Below, in pieces: positions 15,401-23,807 of a stretch of 64,000 nt of DNA. A program made the translations under genes and the position numbers. Source of the DNA: a virus. Within the stretch, counting starts at the first letter, position 1. Each line of letters starts with the position of its first letter. Location of the stretch: the IMG/VR virus record IMGVR_UViG_3300033994_001756, positions 1 to 64,000 of that record; one strand, 5' to 3'. The notes under the pieces were generated by a model. It made no database searches. It had not been told where the DNA came from and was given only the letters and a program-made list of their open reading frames with translations.

Positions 15401-15410
15401 ACCCAGGGGG

Positions 15411-15439
15411 TTGACTTCCCACCACATCTCTGTCATACT
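15411..15439 (+). promoter_or_regulatory. sigma70-type promoter, extended -10
   Basis: CAGGGGG then TTGACT, 17-bp spacer, TGT-CATACT. The -10 and leader (CATACTGAACTCGTTCA, then CTACT) are repeated at 15675. Confidence 0.8.
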
Positions 15440-15461
15440 GAACTCGTTCACTACTGAACCC

Positions 15462-15638
15462 ATGAAGTTCTCACTTGATTCCAAACTCTTCTATATTGGT
15501 GCTAACACCAAGGCTAAGCAAGGTGACGAACAGTTTGGTATTAGTATTGGCAAGTATTATTTTGGATTTTATGACAACAAGCCTTGTGCAGGCAAACTCA
15601 ACAAGTATGGTGCCCTGATCACCGATAAGAAACTCTAA
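15462..15638 (+). CDS. hypothetical 58-residue protein
   Basis: ATG 15462 chosen because it follows the promoter and the conserved leader; the upstream open frame runs through the promoter. MKFSLDSKLFYIGANTKAKQ, then GDEQFGISIGKYYFGFYDNK. Beta-rich and basic at the C-terminus. Single-gene unit flanked by two copies of the same promoter-leader sequence. Unknown. Confidence 0.65.
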   Translation: MKFSLDSKLFYIGANTKAKQGDEQFGISIGKYYFGFYDNKPCAGKLNKYGALITDKKL

Positions 15639-15650
15639 TCAGTCAGGGGG

Positions 15651-15680
15651 TTGACACCAGCCCCCAACCCATGCCATACT
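15651..15680 (+). promoter_or_regulatory. sigma70-type promoter, extended -10
   Basis: CAGGGGG, TTGACA, 18-bp spacer, TGC-CATACT. GGGGG (15646) and CCCCC (15661) can pair with the -35 in the loop. The leader is nearly identical to that at 15434. Confidence 0.8.
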
Positions 15681-15702
15681 GAACTCGTTCACTACTAAAC
15701 CA

Positions 15703-15981
15703 ATGGACATCACCACTCAACAAGTTTCTGAACTCCTGCAGGCTCACTGCTATCGAGTTATTGATAACATGAGTTCAGATGATTTGTTTAGCTATGCTAT
15801 GCAAATGATGATTCAATCCTTTGATCAGAATCCTGGCCAAGGTGACACAGATGTTGACATGTTAATTGAAGACATCTGGGTTGCAGAAGGTGAAGACGAA
15901 GACTCTGTGCAAGAGTTCATTGCTGGTGTTTTTGGTGATGCACTGCTCGCAGAAGAGATTGTAAAGTCTACCCAATTCTGA
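15703..15981 (+). CDS. very acidic protein of unknown function
   Basis: 92 residues, ATG 15703. Strongly acidic with only a couple of basic residues. Contains VIDNMSSDDLFSYAMQMMIQ and DVDMLIEDIWVAEGEDEDSV. First of three consecutive small genes from the 15651 promoter. Such acidity can reflect DNA mimicry or protein binding, but nothing specific is visible. Confidence 0.7.
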   Translation: MDITTQQVSELLQAHCYRVIDNMSSDDLFSYAMQMMIQSFDQNPGQGDTDVDMLIEDIWVAEGEDEDSVQEFIAGVFGDALLAEEIVKSTQF

Positions 15982-16277: not shown

Positions 16278-16287
16278 AATCAGGGGG

Positions 16288-16316
16288 TTGACATCCCAGC
16301 CCCCACCTGTTAAATT
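16288..16316 (+). promoter_or_regulatory. sigma70-type promoter, extended -10
   Basis: CAGGGGG, TTGACA, 17-bp spacer, TGT-TAAATT. GGGGG (16283) and CCCCC (16300) flank the -35 as a possible hairpin. The -10 overlaps an AATTATTAAC repeat element. Confidence 0.8.
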
Positions 16317-16345
16317 ATTAACTGTACACCCACCACACAAACATC

Positions 16346-16603
16346 ATGGCAACTGTAATCGCTCCTGTGCATCGTTCATTTACCAAAGAACAGTCCAGTG
16401 CTATTAACTCTATCACTGTAGACAACACTGATGTTATTATTACATATCACAGCAATGTAGACAAAGCATATACCTTTACTGCAAGTGAGTCTTATGCTCA
16501 GTTCCTGAGTGATCTTATGACTAATGATGAGATCCTGAAGAATGTAAGCATTGGTTCTACTATTGCTGATGCACGTAAGACTGAAGAACTGAAGGCGGTG
16601 TGA
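16346..16603 (+). CDS. KTSC-like small protein
   Basis: 85 residues, ATG 16346. INSITVDNTDVIITYHSNVD, then KAYTFTASESYAQFLSDLM, resembles the beta-hairpin plus helix of KTSC-domain proteins, which occur as small phage and bacterial proteins of uncertain role. Single-gene unit with its own promoter and a following hairpin. Confidence 0.6.
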   Translation: MATVIAPVHRSFTKEQSSAINSITVDNTDVIITYHSNVDKAYTFTASESYAQFLSDLMTNDEILKNVSIGSTIADARKTEELKAV

Positions 16604-16631: not shown

Positions 16632-16685
16632 TCCCACTACATTATTACACATTGTGACAGCTGAACTCCTTGCACTGCTGGTTAT

Positions 16686-16724: not shown

Positions 16725-16916
16725 ATGGCTCCGATGATCACTGTCAAACCTATCTCAAAGAAGGCAAAGAACAGGTTCGCTAATCTAATGGATTCTTGCG
16801 AGCATTGTGTTGTTGAACAACACAAAGGTGATAAAGTATTCTTGCGTTCACTAAATTGCAAGAACTTCTTCTGGGTTAATGTACACCACGATCAGGATTG
16901 GGAGCTGGAAATGTAA
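16725..16916 (+). CDS. conserved small phage protein
   Basis: 63 residues, ATG 16725 (ATG 16734 also possible). Contains SKKAKNRFANLMDSCEHCVV, then EQHKGDKVFLRSLNCKNFFW, a pattern I recognise from small T4-like cyanophage proteins without function. Its stop lies in the first copy of a 22-bp repeat that recurs after the next gene. Confidence 0.65.
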   Translation: MAPMITVKPISKKAKNRFANLMDSCEHCVVEQHKGDKVFLRSLNCKNFFWVNVHHDQDWELEM

Positions 16917-16933
16917 TTATTTCGATTTGTAAC
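16912..16933 (+). repeat. 22-bp direct repeat, copy 1
   Basis: TGTAATTATTTCGA then TTTGTAAC; 20/22 identical to 17748-17769. Contains the stop codon of the upstream gene. Together the copies flank the GP88 gene cassette. Confidence 0.7.
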
Positions 16934-16970
16934 GCCAGCCCACACCAAGGCTCGGCTGGCGTGCTACTAT
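16933..16970 (+). terminator. terminator hairpin followed by extended -10
   Basis: CGCCAGCC (16933) / GGCTGGCG (16954), 8-bp perfect stem. It is followed immediately by TGC-TACTAT (16962-16970), an extended -10 that would transcribe the GP88 gene, so termination and initiation are adjacent. Confidence 0.7.
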
Positions 16971-16993
16971 TACTTCAGTCGCAACCCAATCCA

Positions 16994-17752
16994 GTGACCG
17001 ACCTTCTGACCTTCTCTCACGGTAACGCCAAGCTTGGCAAGGGCACGCTGATTTTCTCTTTACCAGCTGGCAAGACTTGTCCCGGTGCTCTATTCTGTCT
17101 CTCGTTTGCTGTTGTTAATGAAGACGGCAAGCGTAAGGTTCAGGATGGCCCACATACTGAGTTTCGTTGCTTTGCTGCAACTAGCGAGGCACAATACGAT
17201 GGCCCATTCTTTGCTCGTGCTCGCAATCTCCAGCTGATTGCTGATGCTATTAAAGAGAGCACTGCAGTGGAATTGTTGAACACTAGCCTGCAGAATGCTC
17301 GCAAGAAGAATAGCAAGCTGGTGAGAATTCACGAGTCTGGAGACTTCTTCAGTGGAGCATATTTGGATGCTTGGATTGAAGTAGCCAAGCTGAACCCTGA
17401 TCTTAAGTTCTACTGCTACAGCAAAAACCTGCCACTGTTTGTAGGTTTGGAACTACCTGCTAATTTCTACATGACGGCAAGCTATGGTGGCAAATTCGAT
17501 CACTACATCGACGCAGGTGTGTTCCCTCGCTATAGTAAAGTCGTCCACAATGACGAGGAAGCTGAGGCTATGGGTCTGGAAGTAGATCACGATGATAGCC
17601 ACTGTTTTGGTGACAAGCCTTTCGCTTTGCTGGTGCATTCAACCCAGCCTAAAGGTTCAACCTACGGCAAAGCTGTTCATGCTCGCCGTCGTGCTGGTAA
17701 GTTTAGCGGTTACAAAAAGGAACGGCAAGCTATTCTGGCCAGCAAAGTGTAA
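16994..17752 (+). CDS. GP88-domain protein
   Basis: 252 residues from GTG 16994. An in-frame ATG at 16898 is rejected because it lies upstream of the terminator hairpin and the predicted -10. The sequence LLTFSHGNAKLGKGTLIFSL, then PAGKTCPGALFC (Cys29, Cys35), is the start of the gene-88 (GP88) family known from mycobacteriophages and other phages; function unknown, possibly metal-binding through its Cys residues. HESGDFFSGAYLDAWIEVAK and FYMTASYGGKFDHYI are further conserved-looking blocks. It is GC-richer than the virion genes. It is flanked by 22-bp direct repeats, as if inserted as a unit. Confidence 0.75.
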   Translation: MTDLLTFSHGNAKLGKGTLIFSLPAGKTCPGALFCLSFAVVNEDGKRKVQDGPHTEFRCFAATSEAQYDGPFFARARNLQLIADAIKESTAVELLNTSLQNARKKNSKLVRIHESGDFFSGAYLDAWIEVAKLNPDLKFYCYSKNLPLFVGLELPANFYMTASYGGKFDHYIDAGVFPRYSKVVHNDEEAEAMGLEVDHDDSHCFGDKPFALLVHSTQPKGSTYGKAVHARRRAGKFSGYKKERQAILASKV

Positions 17753-17769
17753 TTATTTCACTTTGTAAC
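17748..17769 (+). repeat. 22-bp direct repeat, copy 2
   Basis: TGTAATTATTTCAC then TTTGTAAC, overlapping the GP88 stop codon; see copy 1 at 16912. Confidence 0.7.
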
Positions 17770-17770
17770 A

Positions 17771-17815
17771 ATCAGGGTCTGACCCATAGCCAGGGTCCCC
17801 CTGATACCCTATACT
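17771..17815 (+). promoter_or_regulatory. hairpin overlapping promoter
   Basis: ATCAGGG (17771) / CCCTGAT (17799) can pair. Within it TAGCCA (17787) - 17 bp - TATACT (17810) forms a promoter for the gene at 17858, with the -35 in the loop. Confidence 0.6.
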
Positions 17816-17857
17816 TAGATCACGGGGACAGAGATCCCCCACACACCCCACAAGACA

Positions 17858-18172
17858 ATGACCCGCAACGATCGTCTTACCAGCACCAGCATTCCCAAGG
17901 TCGTGGCTGTTGCCCTTGCTAAGGTTACCGTGGCACGGCCCCACGTTATCGGTCGCCATCGTGCCCAATGGCTGTTCGATCTGGCCACTAGCGACACAGC
18001 ACTACAGGCCGAGCGCAAGCTAGCACGTAAGGCCCTGCAGGCCGCAGCAGACTCTGCAGGGCGTAACATCAGCGCCAAGGCTGATGGCACCCCTATCACC
18101 AACCGTGTCTACTCTAAGGCCAGCAACAAAAGGCTAGTTCGCTGGAGCCAGGATCGTCCTAGCCCAGTCTGA
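17858..18172 (+). CDS. hypothetical basic protein, GC-rich gene
   Basis: 104 residues, ATG 17858. Ala/Arg/Lys-rich and helical (SDTALQAERKLARKALQAAA). The N-terminus is Thr/Val-rich (TSTSIPKVVAVALAKVTVAR). The codons end mostly in G or C, unlike the AT-rich phage core. Possibly nucleic-acid-binding from its charge. Own promoter and terminator. Unknown. Confidence 0.65.
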   Translation: MTRNDRLTSTSIPKVVAVALAKVTVARPHVIGRHRAQWLFDLATSDTALQAERKLARKALQAAADSAGRNISAKADGTPITNRVYSKASNKRLVRWSQDRPSPV

Positions 18173-18186
18173 CAAGTGGCACACCG

Positions 18187-18210
18187 GGGCTTGACAGCAA
18201 GCCCTTTTTT
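18187..18210 (+). terminator. strong terminator containing TTGACA
   Basis: GGGCTTG / CAAGCCC with loop ACAG, then six T. The stem-loop junction spells TTGACA, but no -10 lies at the correct distance. Confidence 0.85.
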
Positions 18211-18443
18211 GTGCTGTTTTTTCTAGATTATTTCATGGCAGGCGGCGTGGCGACCATTTCATCAGCAGGCTTACCCCAGCCCTCGTTCGCTTGTGAACAT
18301 AGTCTAGCACACCGCCAGCCCCAAACCGAGCCCAGCTGTGACCAGTTCACAAATCGTCACACAGAAAAAGAGAGTCTACCTTCAGTCTAGCACACCGTCC
18401 GAGCACCCGTCAAGTCCTAAAACCAGTTCAACCACTGGCACAA
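18211..18443. other. gene-free stretch with short repeats
   Basis: No convincing gene in 18173-18503. AGTCTAGCACACCG occurs twice (18301, 18384). CCAGTTCA blocks occur at 18345 and 18422, like the start regions of promoters elsewhere. It may be the remains of lost cassettes. Confidence 0.4.
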
Positions 18444-18488
18444 GACCCCCTAGACTCTGGCCAGGATCTGTGCGATTCTATGGGGGTC
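18444..18488 (+). promoter_or_regulatory. promoter enclosed in an inverted repeat
   Basis: GACCCCC (18444) / GGGGGTC (18482) enclose TAGACT (18451) - 17 bp - GATTCT (18474, preceded by TGC). Upstream of the 49-residue gene at 18504. Confidence 0.5.
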
Positions 18489-18503
18489 AAACAAAGGCAC
18501 CCC

Positions 18504-18653
18504 ATGAATCCCTTCCTCACTGATTCTCAAGTAGAAGAACTGAACACTATGGGTTATATTGAATTGACTGAAGAATTATTAAGCGTTATATTTAATACTA
18601 CCAATGTAGTTTGGGAGAATGATATTCTGGTAGACAAGAATTATTATCAGTAA
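18504..18653 (+). CDS. hypothetical 49-residue protein
   Basis: ATG 18504 to TAA 18651. MNPFLTDSQVEELNTMGYIE, then LTEELLSVIFNTTNVVWEND. Acidic, helical. Unlike its neighbours it is AT-rich. Preceded by a promoter-like element. Unknown. Confidence 0.5.
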   Translation: MNPFLTDSQVEELNTMGYIELTEELLSVIFNTTNVVWENDILVDKNYYQ

Positions 18654-18716
18654 TATAAAATTATTAACAGTATTACAAATTATTAACCGTAATAGGTAAT
18701 ACTTAACCATACATCC

Positions 18717-18734
18717 CCCCCACACACGTGGGGG
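18717..18734 (+). terminator. hairpin terminator
   Basis: CCCCCAC / GTGGGGG perfect stem with ACAC loop. The preceding 18654-18716 is AT-rich with two AATTATTAAC elements. Confidence 0.6.
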
Positions 18735-18735
18735 C

Positions 18736-18760
18736 ACAATGTATATACATTTTACATTGT
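18736..18760. promoter_or_regulatory. nested palindrome, possible operator
   Basis: ACAATGTA (18736) / TACATTGT (18753), with the perfect palindrome ATGTATATACAT (18739-18750) overlapping the left arm. Located between a terminator and the next promoter. Confidence 0.5.
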
Positions 18761-18810
18761 GACAATCCAAGGGCTGGCCACCAACTGGCCCACACCACGC
18801 CAGCCCACCT

Positions 18811-18831
18811 GCTATACTGATCTCAGTTCAG
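18811..18831 (+). promoter_or_regulatory. extended -10 promoter
   Basis: TGC just before TATACT (18813-18818), followed by GATCTCAGTTCA, matching the block at 13427. No clear -35. Gene start at 18841. Confidence 0.6.
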
Positions 18832-18840
18832 CCAAAGGCT

Positions 18841-19050
18841 ATGATCGCCAACCACGCCACCGCACAAGACTTCGCCAACTGGGAGGCCAAAGCCAAGGCC
18901 ATGACTATGGCTGGGCTGGTATGGTCAGCACAAGATGCTCGCAAGGCCCAACAGGCGATGCGAGGCTGGAACCCCATCGCTGAGGGTCGCTACAGCGATG
19001 AGGCGAGCACCTATGAGGATGAGATCAGGCGTCGCAGGGCCAGGGCCTGA
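18841..19050 (+). CDS. hypothetical protein, GC-rich cassette
   Basis: 69 residues, ATG 18841. MIANHATAQDFANWEAKAKA, then a helical stretch and an Arg-rich end (EDEIRRRRARA). GC-rich codons. Not recognised. Confidence 0.6.
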   Translation: MIANHATAQDFANWEAKAKAMTMAGLVWSAQDARKAQQAMRGWNPIAEGRYSDEASTYEDEIRRRRARA

Positions 19051-19153
19051 GCTGGCACAAGGCCAGCTGGCCTGCTGGCACACGCTAAACCCCAGTGGGC
19101 CAGTTCTAGAACTGCCACAGCTGTGCCACTTCTAAAGGCTGCACAAGCCCCTG

Positions 19154-19183
19154 TTGCCAGCTGCCGCTTGGGCCTGCTAGTGT
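19154..19183 (+). promoter_or_regulatory. promoter of the 19209 gene
   Basis: TTGCCA - 18 bp - TAGTGT, with TGC directly before the -10. The upstream 19051-19150 contains several GGCCAGCTGGCC-type inverted repeats. Confidence 0.5.
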
Positions 19184-19208
19184 TCCTTACGTACACCGCA
19201 CTACAGCG

Positions 19209-19463
19209 ATGACCACCACTGAAACCCGCCTCACCGTTGAACAGGCCACCTACGCTGTGGAGAGGTTGCTGAGCTGGGCTGACAGCGAGGATGATCGCAA
19301 GCCGAGCACGTTTGCCCTGTGGCTGAGCCTTACCGGAAACGGCGGCACACTATGGGCTTTCGACAGAGGCTACCTAGAGTGCTCGATGCTCGCCGATGCC
19401 CTGCAGGCATGGGCCACCTACCCGAACGAGATCCGAGATTGGCTGGCTGACAACTGCATCTGA
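19209..19463 (+). CDS. hypothetical protein, GC-rich cassette
   Basis: 84 residues, ATG 19209. TRLTVEQATYAVERLLSWAD, then LWLSLTGNGGTLWAFDRGYL. Acidic. Its stop begins the repeated post-stop block TGAGCCCAGCCGGGG. Not recognised. Confidence 0.65.
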   Translation: MTTTETRLTVEQATYAVERLLSWADSEDDRKPSTFALWLSLTGNGGTLWAFDRGYLECSMLADALQAWATYPNEIRDWLADNCI

Positions 19464-19471
19464 GCCCAGCC

Positions 19472-19505
19472 GGGGACCCTACGGGGTCCCCCCATCTGCT
19501 AAGAT
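19472..19505 (+). terminator. cUACGg-loop terminator plus extended -10
   Basis: GGGGACCC-TACG-GGGTCCCC stem-loop (19472-19491) followed by TGC-TAAGAT (19497-19505). The C(UACG)G loop is the extra-stable UNCG type. Confidence 0.75.
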
Positions 19506-19510
19506 TCTCA

Positions 19511-19533
19511 AGTCCAACCGACACAGACCAATG
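19511..19533 (+). repeat. leader A, copy 1
   Basis: AGTCCAACCGACACAGACCA directly followed by the ATG; identical copy at 19816-19838 in front of a different gene. No Shine-Dalgarno sequence. Confidence 0.75.
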
Positions 19534-19761
19534 TCCCGCACCATCTCCACCGATTGCATCCGTTACACTGTTAGTGGCTATGAGTACGATTACGAGCCCA
19601 AAAACTACATGGGCACCCTTGACTGGTTCAACGTCGCCCGTTGTGCCCGTGAGCGCATGACTGAGAATTGCGGCGAAATTAACCGCTGGCGGGGTGAGCG
19701 TCGCTCTTTCTATACGTCCATTGTCAAGATGGACGCCGACACCAAGCATTTGATGGACTGA
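19531..19761 (+). CDS. hypothetical protein, GC-rich cassette
   Basis: 76 residues from ATG 19531, placed exactly at the end of leader A; the longer open frame runs through the terminator. MSRTISTDCIRYTVSGYEYD, then WFNVARCARERMTENCGEIN. Unlike its neighbours it is basic in the centre. Unknown. Confidence 0.65.
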   Translation: MSRTISTDCIRYTVSGYEYDYEPKNYMGTLDWFNVARCARERMTENCGEINRWRGERRSFYTSIVKMDADTKHLMD

Positions 19762-19775
19762 CAGCGAGCCCAGCC

Positions 19776-19810
19776 GGGGACCCTACGGGGTCCCCCTTCC
19801 GTGGTACACT
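19776..19810 (+). terminator. cUACGg-loop terminator plus extended -10
   Basis: GGGGACCC-TACG-GGGTCCCC (19776-19795), identical to 19472, then TGG-TACACT (19802-19810). Confidence 0.75.
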
Positions 19811-19815
19811 TTACG

Positions 19816-19838
19816 AGTCCAACCGACACAGACCAATG
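19816..19838 (+). repeat. leader A, copy 2
   Basis: Identical to 19511-19533, including the ATG. Confidence 0.75.
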
Positions 19839-20021
19839 GCCACGATCAGCCCCATTGAAGCCGACTTTCTGACCCATTGCATTGACGTATGGTGCAATGA
19901 GACTCCCCAGGTCGCCGGCAGGCCCGTGATGTTTACCACGCAAGAGGGTGGAACTGAAAGGGTCCTGCTGACCCACGATCAAATCGAATCCCTGTTCCTG
20001 CGCCTGCAGGCATTGAAGTGA
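19836..20021 (+). CDS. hypothetical protein, GC-rich cassette
   Basis: 61 residues, ATG 19836 at the end of leader A copy 2. MATISPIEADFLTHCIDVWC, ending HDQIESLFLRLQALK. Helical, acidic. Not similar to the gene behind leader A copy 1, so only the control DNA is shared. Confidence 0.65.
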   Translation: MATISPIEADFLTHCIDVWCNETPQVAGRPVMFTTQEGGTERVLLTHDQIESLFLRLQALK

Positions 20022-20029
20022 GCCCAGCT

Positions 20030-20049
20030 GGGGAGCCTACGGGCTCCCC
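20030..20049 (+). terminator. cUACGg-loop terminator
   Basis: GGGGAGCC-TACG-GGCTCCCC, a compensated variant of the 19472 terminator (bases changed on both arms). No clear -10 before the next gene. Confidence 0.75.
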
Positions 20050-20080
20050 TTCCTACCCACAAACCAACCCACCTAAGGCC

Positions 20081-20281
20081 ATGGTCAGCACTATCAGCAC
20101 TCACACGGCTTACGATCGCCCGGAAGGGCTGCCCCTTTCCACCGGTAGGTGGGAGATGTGGTGGTGTCTTGCCTGTAACGCTGGCTACCGGGGCGACCGG
20201 CAAGCCAAGCGGCTGGCGCTCGCCCAATACAGGCGAGCAGTCGAGCTGGAGATCGGCTCCCAACTCCTATTCGACGCCTGA
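20081..20281 (+). CDS. hypothetical protein, GC-rich cassette
   Basis: 66 residues from ATG 20081. MVSTISTHTAYDRPEGLPLS, then WEMWWCLACNAGYRGDRQAK with a CxxC pair, and a basic helix at the end. Possible zinc-binding fragment; unknown. Confidence 0.6.
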   Translation: MVSTISTHTAYDRPEGLPLSTGRWEMWWCLACNAGYRGDRQAKRLALAQYRRAVELEIGSQLLFDA

Positions 20282-20289
20282 GGCCAGCC

Positions 20290-20323
20290 GGGGCCAGCTA
20301 CTGGCCCCATCCTGTGGTAGAGT
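20290..20323 (+). terminator. terminator plus extended -10
   Basis: GGGGCCAG-CTA-CTGGCCCC (20290-20308), then TGG-TAGAGT (20315-20323). Confidence 0.7.
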
Positions 20324-20350
20324 TTGCAAGCAAACCAAGGGAGAACCCCC

Positions 20351-20548
20351 ATGGCTTTCTATCTGCAGGCACCCTCCGGCACCATCGCCACCTTTGAACA
20401 GCTGGCGGCTGATCGGATGGTGTTCGCTTGCGGCCCTGACGTTGTGGAGCTGTCCCTAGAGGATGCTCGCAAGGTCTGGCAGGCCCTGCTGATCTGCCAG
20501 TATCAGCCCACTGATAGGGAGGCTGCACTCCTACATCAGGGCTGGTGA
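20351..20548 (+). CDS. hypothetical protein, GC-rich cassette
   Basis: 65 residues from ATG 20351. MAFYLQAPSGTIATFEQLAA, then DRMVFACGPDVVELSLEDAR. Looks like a small alpha/beta domain. A GGGAGAA sequence upstream may be a ribosome site, unusual for this array. Unknown. Confidence 0.65.
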   Translation: MAFYLQAPSGTIATFEQLAADRMVFACGPDVVELSLEDARKVWQALLICQYQPTDREAALLHQGW

Positions 20549-20556
20549 GCCCAGCC

Positions 20557-20595
20557 GGGGCAAGCTTGACGGCTTGCCCCTTCATCCTCTATACT
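20557..20595 (+). promoter_or_regulatory. fused terminator-promoter
   Basis: Terminator stem GGGGCAAGC (20557) / GCTTGCCCC (20572) has TTGACG as its loop. TTGACG - 18 bp - TATACT (20590) is a good sigma70-type promoter. The -35 hexamer is therefore the loop of the upstream terminator. Confidence 0.8.
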
Positions 20596-20597
20596 TA

Positions 20598-20626
20598 ATC
20601 TCAAGCGGGCCGATCGGTGCCCGCAC
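20598..20626 (+). repeat. leader B hairpin, copy 1
   Basis: 29 bases identical to 21228-21256: ATCTCAA, then GCGGGC-CGATCGGT-GCCCGC hairpin, then AC. It lies in the 5' untranslated leader. Confidence 0.75.
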
Positions 20627-20639
20627 CGCTTCTCAGACC

Positions 20640-20924
20640 ATGGAATACAGCGACCTTTTCACCCCCTGCTCGGTAGGCGACCTGCGCCTACCGCCTAAGT
20701 TCCAGACGATACTTCACGTGCTGTACGTAGATACAGCAGCAAACCAGCCCACACGTGGCTGGCTGTATTTGCCAGCTGGGTTGGTTCTGAGCTGGGCTTG
20801 TGAGCCCGAGCACGGCGAGGAAGTGGAACTGTGGGCATGTGGCCCGCTCAGCCTCACCCGGCCCATGACAGATGAGGAGCGTGAGGATTGGCGCTGCGAT
20901 CAGTACGATCCCGCCGACTGGTGA
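20640..20924 (+). CDS. hypothetical acidic protein, GC-rich cassette
   Basis: 94 residues from ATG 20640 after leader B. MEYSDLFTPCSVGDLRLPPK, then a beta-rich part (GWLYLPAGLVLSWACEPEHG) and an acidic end. Unknown. Confidence 0.65.
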   Translation: MEYSDLFTPCSVGDLRLPPKFQTILHVLYVDTAANQPTRGWLYLPAGLVLSWACEPEHGEEVELWACGPLSLTRPMTDEEREDWRCDQYDPADW

Positions 20925-20932
20925 GCCCAGCC

Positions 20933-20952
20933 GGGGACCCTACTGGGTCCCC
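20933..20952 (+). terminator. terminator
   Basis: GGGGACCC-TACT-GGGTCCCC; one loop base differs from the TACG copies. No clear -10 before the next gene. Confidence 0.7.
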
Positions 20953-20984
20953 CTTCCTACCTACACCCCACAAGCACAAGCACC

Positions 20985-21173
20985 ATGTACGAAACCCTTA
21001 GGGAAGCCACCGAAGCCCGCATGAACGAGCAGGGCTGCATCCCCTATCAGGATGCTTTCAGTGAATCGATCAGCCACGGTGTCGGGCAAGAGTTTTTGGC
21101 CCTGTATGGCTCAGCCATAGGCTGGCCCAATGGGGTTGACGCCGGGGAGTGGCTGGTCTGGCTAGGTTACTGA
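20985..21173 (+). CDS. hypothetical protein, GC-rich cassette
   Basis: 62 residues, ATG 20985. MYETLREATEARMNEQGCIP, ending DAGEWLVWLGY. Acidic, helical. Unknown. Confidence 0.6.
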   Translation: MYETLREATEARMNEQGCIPYQDAFSESISHGVGQEFLALYGSAIGWPNGVDAGEWLVWLGY

Positions 21174-21185
21174 ATATGAACTTTA

Positions 21186-21210
21186 GGGCCAGCTCAGCCA
21201 CGGCTGGCCC
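21186..21210 (+). terminator. terminator
   Basis: GGGCCAGC / GCTGGCCC with a 9-base loop; the possible -10 TAGGAT lies at 21221. Confidence 0.65.
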
Positions 21211-21227
21211 GCCCATCCTGTAGGATT

Positions 21228-21256
21228 ATCTCAAGCGGGCCGATCGGTGCCCGCAC
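21228..21256 (+). repeat. leader B hairpin, copy 2
   Basis: Identical to 20598-20626, in front of a different gene. Confidence 0.75.
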
Positions 21257-21268
21257 TGCCTGAAGACC

Positions 21269-21562
21269 ATGAATCGCCAACTGCTGACCATCGCCGACGC
21301 CTACATCTCGAACATGTTCGAGTGGGCACGCCGTGCCGACTGCGAGTTTGGCACCGCTTGTGCCGAGCTCGAAACCTACGTCTGCTCGATCACCACGTAC
21401 CGGGAGGATGGCCACGCTTTTGAGAATTGCCCCCACGATCTCTACCAGACCGTGGCGATGCCTGACGGGTTCGCTGAGCTGGAGGATGACGAGGCAGATC
21501 TGGTGATCGAATACCTCGGCGACGTGTGGCCCAGCCTCTGGCGGGACGCCATGGCCTGGTGA
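21269..21562 (+). CDS. hypothetical acidic protein, GC-rich cassette
   Basis: 97 residues, ATG 21269. MNRQLLTIADAYISNMFEWA, then a Cys-containing acidic C-terminal half (LEDDEADLVIEYLGDVWPSL). Last gene of the cassette array. Unknown. Confidence 0.65.
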   Translation: MNRQLLTIADAYISNMFEWARRADCEFGTACAELETYVCSITTYREDGHAFENCPHDLYQTVAMPDGFAELEDDEADLVIEYLGDVWPSLWRDAMAW

Positions 21563-21570
21563 GCCCAGCC

Positions 21571-21590
21571 GGGAGCCCTACGGGGCTCCC
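21571..21590 (+). terminator. cUACGg-loop terminator
   Basis: GGGAGCCC-TACG-GGGCTCCC; last terminator of the array. Confidence 0.75.
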
Positions 21591-21952
21591 CCATTGATCA
21601 GCAATCCTAATCGATCAGCAGTCCTTATCAGTGGGCAGGGGCAGTATAAACGGCCCTTATCGGTCGCCGCCCGCCGTACCCGTGAAAAACCTCTAACTAC
21701 CCTAAGCTATAACGTACCCAGAAAGCCAGAGAGATACTCAACCAACTCAAAAATTTTCCACCAACCTCCAAGCCCATCCAAGGTTTCCCCATATGCCCCT
21801 CCCAACCCGCACAACATATTCCGAGCAATTCACATATATCGCCCTTTGTCTTACCGAGTGTATCAAAATAATCTCGGAAAAAATTTTCAACAAAAAAAAT
21901 TCCGAGAACCGTTTAGATCCTCGGAAAAAATAATTTATTTGAGTTTGTAGAT
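21591..21952. other. gene-free junction between convergent modules
   Basis: About 360 bases without a gene. The left part still resembles array DNA (GATCAGCA repeated near 21596 and 21614). The right part is AT-rich with TTCCGAG/CTCGGAA motifs at 21819, 21872, 21900 and 21920. TCTCGGAA (21872) / TTCCGAGA (21900) forms an 8-bp hairpin flanked by A/T runs, a likely terminator for the leftward genes. Confidence 0.5.
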
Positions 21953-22558
21953 TTAATGATTAGGATCAATAAATGTCCCAGTATGTTTCACTGGATCTAA
22001 AGGCTTTGCACCTCTCGCCTTTTGTTTTGGTGAACGATTTCTTGTAATTCCTGCTTGTACTCCCTTTTCATTTGGTTCACTCATTCCCTGGGATCTTGTA
22101 TTCAATGATGCCCTACGATCTCCTACTGGTTGTGATACTAATGTAGTTCCAGGTCTTGCTGAAGATGATACTTTCTTTTTAATATCCTGCATTGCTTTAC
22201 CTGCACCAATTCTATCAGTTGTTTCTCCAGTTTTAGTTGTATTCTGAATAAATGTATTTGGTTTATCTCCTGGGGTATAGGTTACTTGAATTGGATGTTT
22301 TTTGTGTGTGAATGTATGAGTTCCTGTCTTATCATCCTTTTTATAATCAATATCAGGATGCCTTGGATTGTTGATTGGTTCTGCGAATTTTCCAACTGAT
22401 GCTCTTACTTTATTAACATCCGTTCCCTTCTTTCTTGCAAGACTTAATGGACTTTCTGTTCCAGCTCTCAATTTCTTTGATGCAGGTGGAATCCAAGCAT
22501 CATCTAAAAGTTGAGTATGTTGCTTTGCTTCTTCTAGGAACTGAGCAAATGTTTTCAT
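21953..22558 (-). CDS. putative internal head protein with capsid-targeting sequence
   Basis: 201 residues, leftward. N-terminus MKTFAQFLEEAKQ matches the T4 IPIII signal MKTYQEFIAEA with Glu10/Ala11 at the same position (gp21 site L-x-E). The remainder is basic, Lys/Thr/Pro/Gly-rich and probably mostly disordered (KKDDKTGTHTFTHKKHPIQV; RSPKQKARGAKPLDPVKHTG). It follows the gene at 22561 by two bases and shares its late promoter. Expected to be packaged with DNA and injected; its target is unknown. Confidence 0.65.
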   Translation of the reverse strand: MKTFAQFLEEAKQHTQLLDDAWIPPASKKLRAGTESPLSLARKKGTDVNKVRASVGKFAEPINNPRHPDIDYKKDDKTGTHTFTHKKHPIQVTYTPGDKPNTFIQNTTKTGETTDRIGAGKAMQDIKKKVSSSARPGTTLVSQPVGDRRASLNTRSQGMSEPNEKGVQAGITRNRSPKQKARGAKPLDPVKHTGTFIDPNH

Positions 22559-22560
22559 GC

Positions 22561-23196
22561 TTAACCTCTTTTGAATTGATATCGAGTAGTTTTATCTTGT
22601 CTAGTCATTTTAAGTTTATCACGATATAACTTCTCACGACTTGGAGAGTGTCTTCCAGTATTCATATCTGTTGGAACTCCACCAAAAGATTTTCCACCTA
22701 CAGACCTAACATCCTTTGGAACATTTTTCACTGCCTTCATAAACTTTCTACCACTTGTCATCTTAGAGTCATCTTTGTTTGTATTGTAGATATCAACATC
22801 AGAAAATGGTTTTCTGTGGTTTCTTCCTAAGTGTTTTGTAATACTCTTAACAACTTGATGTTGATCTTTCTTTGGTGACTTAAACATTTGCATAGTACGA
22901 AGTCTTTCGTTTGCAAAGTGTCCAGAGTTTTTATGGGTTGTAACTTTCGTTTCCATTCCATCATTTTTGATGGATTTGGTTTCGGGAGTTTTTAAGTTTG
23001 CAGATCCTTTTGGAAGTCCATGCCTTCTGAGCATAGCTCTTCGTTGAGTTCTTTGTTGTGTTGGAGGAGTATTATCATATTCACCATAAGTTCTATTACG
23101 AGCCATAAACCCTCTGGTCGAAGAGGGTCCTCTAGGGCTTAATGCTCTTCCGATTCTTCTTTCAGACTCTAATAGAAATTCAGAATATGTCTTCAT
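22561..23196 (-). CDS. putative internal head protein with capsid-targeting sequence
   Basis: 211 residues, strongly basic. Starts MKTYSEFLLESERR: the MKTY..F..E pattern of T4 IPIII, with L-L-E then Ser11 as the cleavage site. The body is Arg/Lys/Thr/Ser-rich (GLPKGSANLKTPETKSIKND; KKDQHQVVKSITKHLGRNHR). Such charge suits DNA co-packaging. Its ATG overlaps the stop of the gene at 23193. Role after injection unknown. Confidence 0.65.
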   Translation of the reverse strand: MKTYSEFLLESERRIGRALSPRGPSSTRGFMARNRTYGEYDNTPPTQQRTQRRAMLRRHGLPKGSANLKTPETKSIKNDGMETKVTTHKNSGHFANERLRTMQMFKSPKKDQHQVVKSITKHLGRNHRKPFSDVDIYNTNKDDSKMTSGRKFMKAVKNVPKDVRSVGGKSFGGVPTDMNTGRHSPSREKLYRDKLKMTRQDKTTRYQFKRG

Positions 23197-23807
23197 GCCT
23201 GACCTCTTTGCTTTGATGCAACTTGTGATCTTCTGGAAGATTCTACAATAACTTCACCTAAGATTGAATCCACCCAAGCATCAGACATAGACTCACAAAT
23301 TCCTACAGCACTTTCATAGGAGTTTGCATATCCTTCATTTACAAGATAATCTAGAATATACTCAATATCTTCTCTACGGAATCTCTTGATTGTATTTGAT
23401 GCATTCACCTTTTTATTTGATGGCCTATTCCAATTCCTTGGACCAGGAGCAATGACACTTTGTGGTTTATTGAGATTGTGAATCCTAACTCCTAGTTCAT
23501 GTGCTTTTTGTCTGATATGATCAATTTTACTATCATGTACTTTTTTTCTAGCTTCTATATCACCTTGCTTCATTCTAAGTGAATGAGTAATATTTCTAAG
23601 TTGATTATTCTTATTCTTTACGTCTTTTCTAATACCAGGACGAAATCTTGCTAATGGTCTTGCTTTTTGGGTTTTAATATCTGACTGTAGCTGTTTAGCT
23701 TTCTTTGCAACCTTAGGAATACTTTTATCTGGCATTGATCTAAAATTTCTTTCCTTCCAATCTTGATCTTCATACATAGATTGGTAGGCTTCTAATAGAT
23801 TAGTCAT
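23193..23807 (-). CDS. conserved cyanophage late protein, probably virion-associated
   Basis: 204 residues, first gene of the leftward late operon. The N-terminus MTNLLEAYQSMYED is shared with many cyanophage structural proteins. The middle is very basic and helical. The C-terminal part DIEYILDYLVNEGYANSYES, then CESMSDAWVDSILGE, is a motif I recognise from T4-like cyanophages. It lacks the MKTY-type signal but may also be packaged. Confidence 0.65.
   Translation of the reverse strand: MTNLLEAYQSMYEDQDWKERNFRSMPDKSIPKVAKKAKQLQSDIKTQKARPLARFRPGIRKDVKNKNNQLRNITHSLRMKQGDIEARKKVHDSKIDHIRQKAHELGVRIHNLNKPQSVIAPGPRNWNRPSNKKVNASNTIKRFRREDIEYILDYLVNEGYANSYESAVGICESMSDAWVDSILGEVIVESSRRSQVASKQRGQA

Follow-up and report, generated by a model that had tools for sequence, protein, structure and literature searches.

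The first 64,000 bases (the window) of the 172,253-base virus record IMGVR_UViG_3300033994_001756 hold an array of nine small open reading frames (ORFs), designated cassettes A to I, which lie head to tail between positions 18,841 and 21,562 and encode proteins of 61–97 aa. The array is best read, with a probability of about 0.75, as a hyperplastic slot shared within a lineage of T4-like cyanophages, in which single small genes are exchanged through shared intergenic units in a manner resembling that of the promoter-early stem-loops (PeSLs) reportedly described in T4-like myoviruses by Arbiol in 2010 and Comeau in 2014. PeSL promoters act early and their stem-loops end transcription, and recombination between the units reportedly yields excised circles.

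The carrier is assigned to the T4-like phages on the basis of a gp23 match in the record (E 2e-143) and of matches to terminase, sheath, portal, scaffold, and baseplate genes of T4-like type, and the relatives of the window are cyanophages, largely from fresh water. The array is situated upstream of the baseplate genes, at 18.7–21.6 kb, and the core of this island (19–21 kb) has a GC content of 59–61% compared with about 35–42% around it. An initial annotation had described the interval 16,912–21,590 as about ten small, unrelated single-gene cassettes joined by near-identical units. This interval contains the nine cassettes, the 49-aa gene g4, and the longer, conserved genes g2 and g3, and blastp (E < 0.01) gives no match between any two of the window's cassette proteins. 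The uniform exchangeable array is narrower than first drawn, extending over about 18,654–21,592, as 16,912–18,172 is occupied by g2 and g3. Similar hairpin junctions also separate AT-rich small genes from 15.4 kb on.

Alleles and breakpoints of the slot

The slot is the interval between g3 (17,858–18,172, plus strand) and a conserved non-coding block (21,596–21,715). A scan with the junctions first found two metagenomic contigs, and scans with the flanking genes added many more (g2, 171 related stretches in viral contigs, of which the best 80 were kept; g3, 43 relatives in viral contigs). In IMGVR_UViG_3300008110_000071 and 3300008113_000088, the flanks are as in the window and the array is different. 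Among the related loci, which carry L numbers here, L108, L115, L116, L119, and L120 contain zero cassettes and represent empty sites, with a distance from g3 to the block of 140 bp (L119, L120) or about 110–150 bp (L108, L115, L116). One cassette is present in L102, L103, L104, L107, L109, L111, L114, and the isolate DSL-LC03, two in L106 and L113, four in L101 and L020, five in L097, eight in L016, and nine in L018 and the window, g4 being excluded from the count. The corresponding distances in filled slots are ~380, ~530, ~755–770, ~1,400, ~2,200, and ~3,000–3,500 bp. L010 and L011 were excluded as slot alleles, as they have only the right-flank gene in common and are located at another site.

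Over these arrays, 25 cassette protein families were distinguished, 12 of which are confined to one array. Shared cassettes always occur in the same order (68 pairs, 0 conflicts), which indicates insertion, deletion, or replacement at homologous slots and not an integron-like permutation. The accumulation site proposed in the initial annotation is recovered as a defined slot with empty alleles, and alignment with relatives reveals the predicted pattern of gene content that varies cassette by cassette, the breakpoints falling within the repeated junctions or on their borders.

Breakpoints were taken as the alignment ends within arrays for all pairs of 15 arrays (n = 238). ORF interiors contain 15 of these ends (6%), though ORFs make up 56–71% of the array length. 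Right ends peak at the start codon, with 22/111 at position +2 or +3 of the ATG, while left ends peak at the stop codon (29/127). The contrast between junction and ORF-interior ends is large despite the non-independence of the ends.

Single events can be resolved to individual cassettes. Between H and the block, I (21,269–21,562; 97 aa) is replaced by the unrelated cassette K in L016 and L018, and the window and L018 are 97–100% identical over G–H and again to the right of 21,710, so that this swap is recent. An unrelated cassette N stands in L018 at the place of F (20,351–20,548; 65 aa), between E and G; the interval between B and E holds C and D, D alone, or M; and L018 has an extra cassette, L, whose point of insertion coincides with the ATG of B (19,209–19,463; 84 aa). 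Identity between the window and L016 is 100% over the stretch that begins at 17,500 and ends at about 18,550, within g4 (18,504–18,653, plus strand), the identity dropping near the 3′ end of this AT-rich gene, after which the arrays differ and are about 80% identical where they match. Cassette C (19,531–19,761; 76 aa) is enclosed by identical 31-bp units, and L016, which does not contain C, has a single unit there. In L114, the junction before cassette R is a chimera, composed of the first part of one L101 junction and the last part of another. The repeat-flanked C and this chimeric junction point to homology between non-allelic units.

The minus-strand genes to the right of the array (21,953–23,207) are 98% identical to those of L018, and g1–g3 on the left are only about 84–87% identical, a difference that points to a recent exchange of the right half.

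Junction units and the predicted fused hairpin-promoter

A sequence at and after the stop codon had been noticed at seven gene ends, and this recurrence is confirmed. With three or fewer mismatches allowed, the 64 kb contain eight copies of GAGCCCAGCCGGGG, every one of them within the island, against an expectation of 0.61, and eight copies were reached in 0/100 shuffles. Copies of this type mark the gene ends at 19,461, 19,765, 20,019, 20,279, 20,546, 20,922, and 21,560; the one at 19,765 begins 6 nt past the start of the stop codon. The G/C hairpin reported between the ORFs is likewise present at every junction, mostly beginning 7–12 nt after the stop. When the junctions of all arrays are pooled, 61 distinct junctions result, all 61 of which contain a hairpin, and 55 of these hairpins are perfect stems of at least 6 pairs. 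Four-base loops are mostly UNCG (19/23), and the 8-bp stem exists in 11 variants that are 100% paired, with compensatory change in 5 of the 8 pairs. The junctions are near-identical only in part, as identical copies (the 31 bp around C) are found alongside several other junction types.

The extended −10 motif TGnTAnnnT is found in 15 of 46 non-anchor junctions, compared with a mean of 0.65 and a maximum of 4 in shuffles. In addition, the hairpin and a predicted promoter are often fused such that the loop carries the −35 element. Of the 61 distinct junctions, 11 have a TTGAC that overlaps the loop (TTGAC in shuffled junctions: mean 0.89, maximum 4), and the best −10 element lies exactly 18 nt from the loop TTGAC in 9 of these 11; in a tenth, a second spacing scores as well as 18 nt, and the remaining one is the L114 chimera, which has lost its −10. 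The 18-nt spacing is preserved when the stem is one pair shorter and the tail one base longer. The best example in the array is a predicted sigma70-like promoter, TTGACG-18-TATACT (20,566–20,595, plus strand), the −35 of which is located in the loop of the hairpin at 20,557–20,580. Across the 172-kb record, the fused pattern is matched exactly by this composite F→G junction (20,546–20,642) and nowhere else. In a scan of all viral contigs with one form of the pattern, matches were confined to this phage group, and the isolates DSL-LC03 and S-SRM01 have the same unit design. A single match in bacterial genomes, in an uncultured Pelosinus bin, was taken as chance.

The other junctions of the window, all on the plus strand, differ in their composition. 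B→C (19,461–19,533) consists of the stop, the hairpin GGGGACCC-UACG-GGGUCCCC, the extended −10 TGCTAAGAT, and the leader CTCAAGTCCAACCGACACAGACCA, and C→D (19,759–19,838) has the same hairpin and leader with TGGTACACT as its extended −10. E→F (20,279–20,353) combines a hairpin with the extended −10 TGGTAGAGT, while D→E (20,019–20,083) and G→H (20,922–20,987) have a hairpin and no recognizable promoter. H→I (21,171–21,271) contains a hairpin, a −10-like TAGGAT, and a leader that shares 97% identity with the F→G leader across 32 nt. The last junction (21,560–21,592) is formed by the stop and the hairpin GGGAGCCC-UACG-GGGCUCCC. Several units also include a leader hairpin, such as GCGGGC-N8-GCCCGC (20,605–20,624, plus strand; second copy at 21,235–21,254), whose position would place it close to where the mRNA is expected to start and where it may protect the message.

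The same fused design occurs among the AT-rich small genes upstream of the array, at 15,405–15,465, 15,640–15,706, and 16,280–16,348, as a GGGGG-TTGAC hairpin with a −10 element 17–18 nt on. The right arm of the first copy has decayed, and two of the three junctions have the leader CATACTGAACTCGTTCACTACT in common. In the example near 15,647, GGGGGTTGACACCAGCCCCC, CATACT lies 18 nt after TTGACA. A second motif that recurs at gene ends, TAATTATTTCNNTTTGTAACA / ACATTGTGACAATC, stands ahead of a number of hairpins in the neighbourhood of g1–g4 and A (16,909–16,933, 17,745–17,769, 16,644–16,659, and 18,749–18,764).

Cassette proteins and flanking genes

Searches of Pfam gave no convincing match for any cassette protein, and PHROGs gave none for those tested. 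The order from the left is A (18,841–19,050; 69 aa), B, C, D (19,836–20,021; 61 aa), E (20,081–20,281; 66 aa), F, G (20,640–20,924; 94 aa), H (20,985–21,173; 62 aa), and I, all on the plus strand. Relatives of A exist in S-2L and S-SRM01; in S-2L (L001 3994–4207), this is an unannotated ORF ~69% identical to A, and a similar stop-hairpin junction lies before it. G lies immediately after g3 in L101 and L020 and has no match in the bacterial genomes or annotated phages searched, so a host origin is not supported despite the high GC content of the island. The AlphaFold model of G was too poor for use (pLDDT 42.6) and was set aside. The relative of C in the podovirus DSL-LC07 is part of a tight gene row with no hairpins, which indicates that, in the case of C, the hairpin units are a property of the site and not of the gene. 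This relative adjoins an annotated antirestriction gene, the sole hint of the host-takeover or counter-defence role put forward in the initial annotation, which the family searches leave unsupported.

To the left of the array, g2 (16,994–17,752, plus strand) starts with GTG and encodes a Gp88-family protein (Pfam PF17338, E 8e-43); it is a conserved neighbour outside of the variable array. The left border of the slot is formed by g3, which encodes a conserved helical protein of 104 aa (alignments A2, A4), and the AlphaFold2 model of this protein is fair (pLDDT 76) and has no match in the PDB. Of the gene ends here, only that of g3 has a classical terminator-like site, consisting of a hairpin and a T-run (18,186–18,205, plus strand). 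In DSL-LC03 (OR003938; L003 5257–5586), a g3 relative with 34% identity to the window protein is missing from the GenBank annotation. The right border, the non-coding block (alignments A1, A7), is also found in DSL-LC03 and S-SRM01 and reads ATCAGCAGTCCTTATCAG ... TATAAGCGGCCCTTATGGGT ... TAACTACCCTAAGCTATAA; its last part is weakly kept in P-SSM2, Sf-FS3, and S-PRM1. Rfam and tRNA scans of the region produced no match.

Models of exchange and known counterparts

In the proposed mechanism, small genes would accumulate between g3 and the non-coding block as units, each composed of an ORF and the hairpin right after its stop codon and often also of a putative sigma70-type promoter and a leader for the next ORF. 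The stop-hairpin-leader stretch common to neighbouring units would supply the homology by which single ORFs are gained, lost, or replaced, through homologous recombination between co-infecting phages and, now and then, through unequal recombination between adjacent units. Exchange of single ORFs in this way would leave the expression of the neighbours intact, while selection for intact ORFs and a working promoter-leader-ATG arrangement would further confine the surviving breakpoints to the units. It is proposed that the shared units, viewed as recombination handles in the initial annotation, promote exchange instead of merely tolerating it, a role for homology that is favoured by the repeat-flanked C and the chimeric junction.

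Several observations weigh against this reading. Whole-array allelic exchange accounts for part of the pattern, given the constant order of the cassettes. The alignment ends are non-independent events, BLAST ends an alignment where similarity falls, and breakpoints at gene borders are also expected from random exchange with only intact genes surviving. The junction ends of a single genome show no significant homogenization (p = 0.08). About half of the units lack a recognizable promoter, and the extended −10 that the initial annotation gave for most junctions is present in about half. Moreover, the array hairpins have no U-run downstream (mean 2.5 T in 8 nt) and are not listed by a consensus terminator scan; the hairpin after each stop is therefore at most a putative terminator, and with many junctions lacking a promoter, one transcript per gene is not established.

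Selection could conceivably act alone, with exchange taking place anywhere, recombinants broken in an ORF or between promoter and ATG being lost, and repeats being kept for expression. This account is rather doubtful. It predicts the frequent match of breakpoints to start and stop codons to the base, and it is in keeping with the lack of significant homogenization and with new cassettes that bring a junction unlike that of their neighbour, as for L→B in L018, but it does not anticipate the non-allelic homology suggested by the identical repeats of C and the two-source junction of L114, nor the junctions of 60–100 bp that are common to non-homologous ORFs across arrays. Conversion by a homing endonuclease is a less likely route still. 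An HNH enzyme would cut phages that lack its gene, break repair would copy the array, and the junctions would be the ends of repair tracts. HNH_3 endonuclease genes do lie directly right of the block in L104 (6763–7140), L097 (8513–8968), and L020 (10,954–11,544), and left of the cassettes in S-SRM01, and endonuclease-flanked mobile cassettes have been described for cyanophages (PMC3037559). However, the record of the window contains no HNH_3 gene, and none was recognized next to the block in the majority of the other relatives inspected, whose arrays are variable too.

Descent of the cassettes from one ancestral gene, duplicated along with its regulatory unit and followed by fast divergence, would leave conserved junctions between dissimilar ORFs, and the repetition of the junctions and the N-terminal TLTLT-like stretches in families L, Q, and X (L/Q weak match, E 8e-4) could be read in this way. 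This is very improbable given that no two cassettes of the window match while the same families are 58–100% identical between arrays, and that A and C have relatives in the unrelated phages S-2L and DSL-LC07. Even less credence is given to integron-like capture, in which a phage or host recombinase would insert cassettes at junction hairpins used as folded single-strand sites. By analogy, single-gene units in one orientation, a hairpin 3′ of each ORF, and empty sites recall integron cassettes. The order of shared cassettes is conserved, though, and the hairpins, whose stems are short, mostly perfect, and free to vary in sequence, close on loops of the UNCG, TTGAC, or a similar type and have neither the bulges nor the two-arm layout of attC. 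The integron reading was rejected on cassette order and hairpin form; with the order constant, allelic or nearby homologous recombination with insertions and deletions fits better than insertion at a fixed end. No recombinase was recognized in the array, nor any integrase among the cassette proteins by family searches, no integrase profile having been run over the whole record. A moron is an extra gene that stands, with a promoter and a terminator of its own, between genes that adjoin one another in relatives. The cassettes are clear insertions relative to the empty sites, but a putative promoter exists for only about half and the terminator is putative.

Among other variable loci, the hypervariable region of cyanomyoviruses is said to be located at gp17–gp18, as attributed to Millard in 2009. 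It is similar to the slot in having variable gene content in T4-like cyanophages and differs in place, as the terminase (end 55,237) and sheath (start 55,299) genes are adjacent in the window. The cassettes here are single tiny genes with no assigned family and not host metabolic genes, which sets them apart from that region and from the endonuclease-flanked mobile cassettes (PMC3037559); HNH_3 endonuclease genes near the slot in some relatives, though not in the record of the window, provide a likeness to the latter. In the haloarchaeal virus HGTV-1, a promoter-like box and an inverted repeat precede many genes and were proposed to aid shuffling, but this virus infects another domain and uses another motif (PMC3950731). 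The SAS/ESAS elements of Cluster K mycobacteriophages are short repeated sequences found where some of the genes begin, half of them with inverted repeats; they differ as 13-bp repeats at the translation start with no hairpin tied to the upstream stop, and the paper assigns them no function (PMC3203893).

The closest counterpart is the PeSL, which, as described in PMC4503421, is a promoter and stem-loop unit repeated in variable regions of T4-like phages and credited with gene shuffling between close relatives. The mechanism proposed here is thus not new in kind. The carrier is T4-like in both cases, promoter and stem-loop composites are repeated between genes, and relatives differ by insertions, deletions, and replacements bounded by units. 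Compared with PeSLs by description only, and to that extent, the units here differ in that they often carry the −35 inside the loop, that the hairpin adjoins the stop codon, and that no U-tracts accompany the stems; a promoter is missing from about half of them, and the slot itself is marked by defined borders and by alleles with no cassette. Literature searches on hairpin-promoter overlap and cyanophage cassettes found nothing further. In the same source (PMC4503421), PeSLs were judged an unlikely cause of the ORFanage of the marine cyanophage S-PM2, and a dense array of units in cyanophages is for this reason a real extension.

We tentatively suggest, as an idea more open to doubt than the exchange itself, that the junctions are bifunctional, with the message-ending hairpin holding the −35 of the next gene in its loop and the same element acting as the preferred crossover, in which case the slot would be an integrase-free capture platform common to a group of cyanomyoviruses. 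If so, an ORF landing between a leader and a stop hairpin would be at once expressed and insulated. The compact fused hairpin-promoter is a prediction that can be tested directly.

Most phage genes are tiny, variable, and of no assigned function, and how they come and go singly and leave their neighbours undisturbed is poorly documented beyond a few T4-like phages. The natural allele series of this slot, from empty to nine genes, displays the outcome of such exchange base by base, and the fixed address between g3 and the block allows new small cyanophage genes to be collected from metagenomes. The slot extends the gene swapping known from T4-like phages of other bacteria to the cyanophages.

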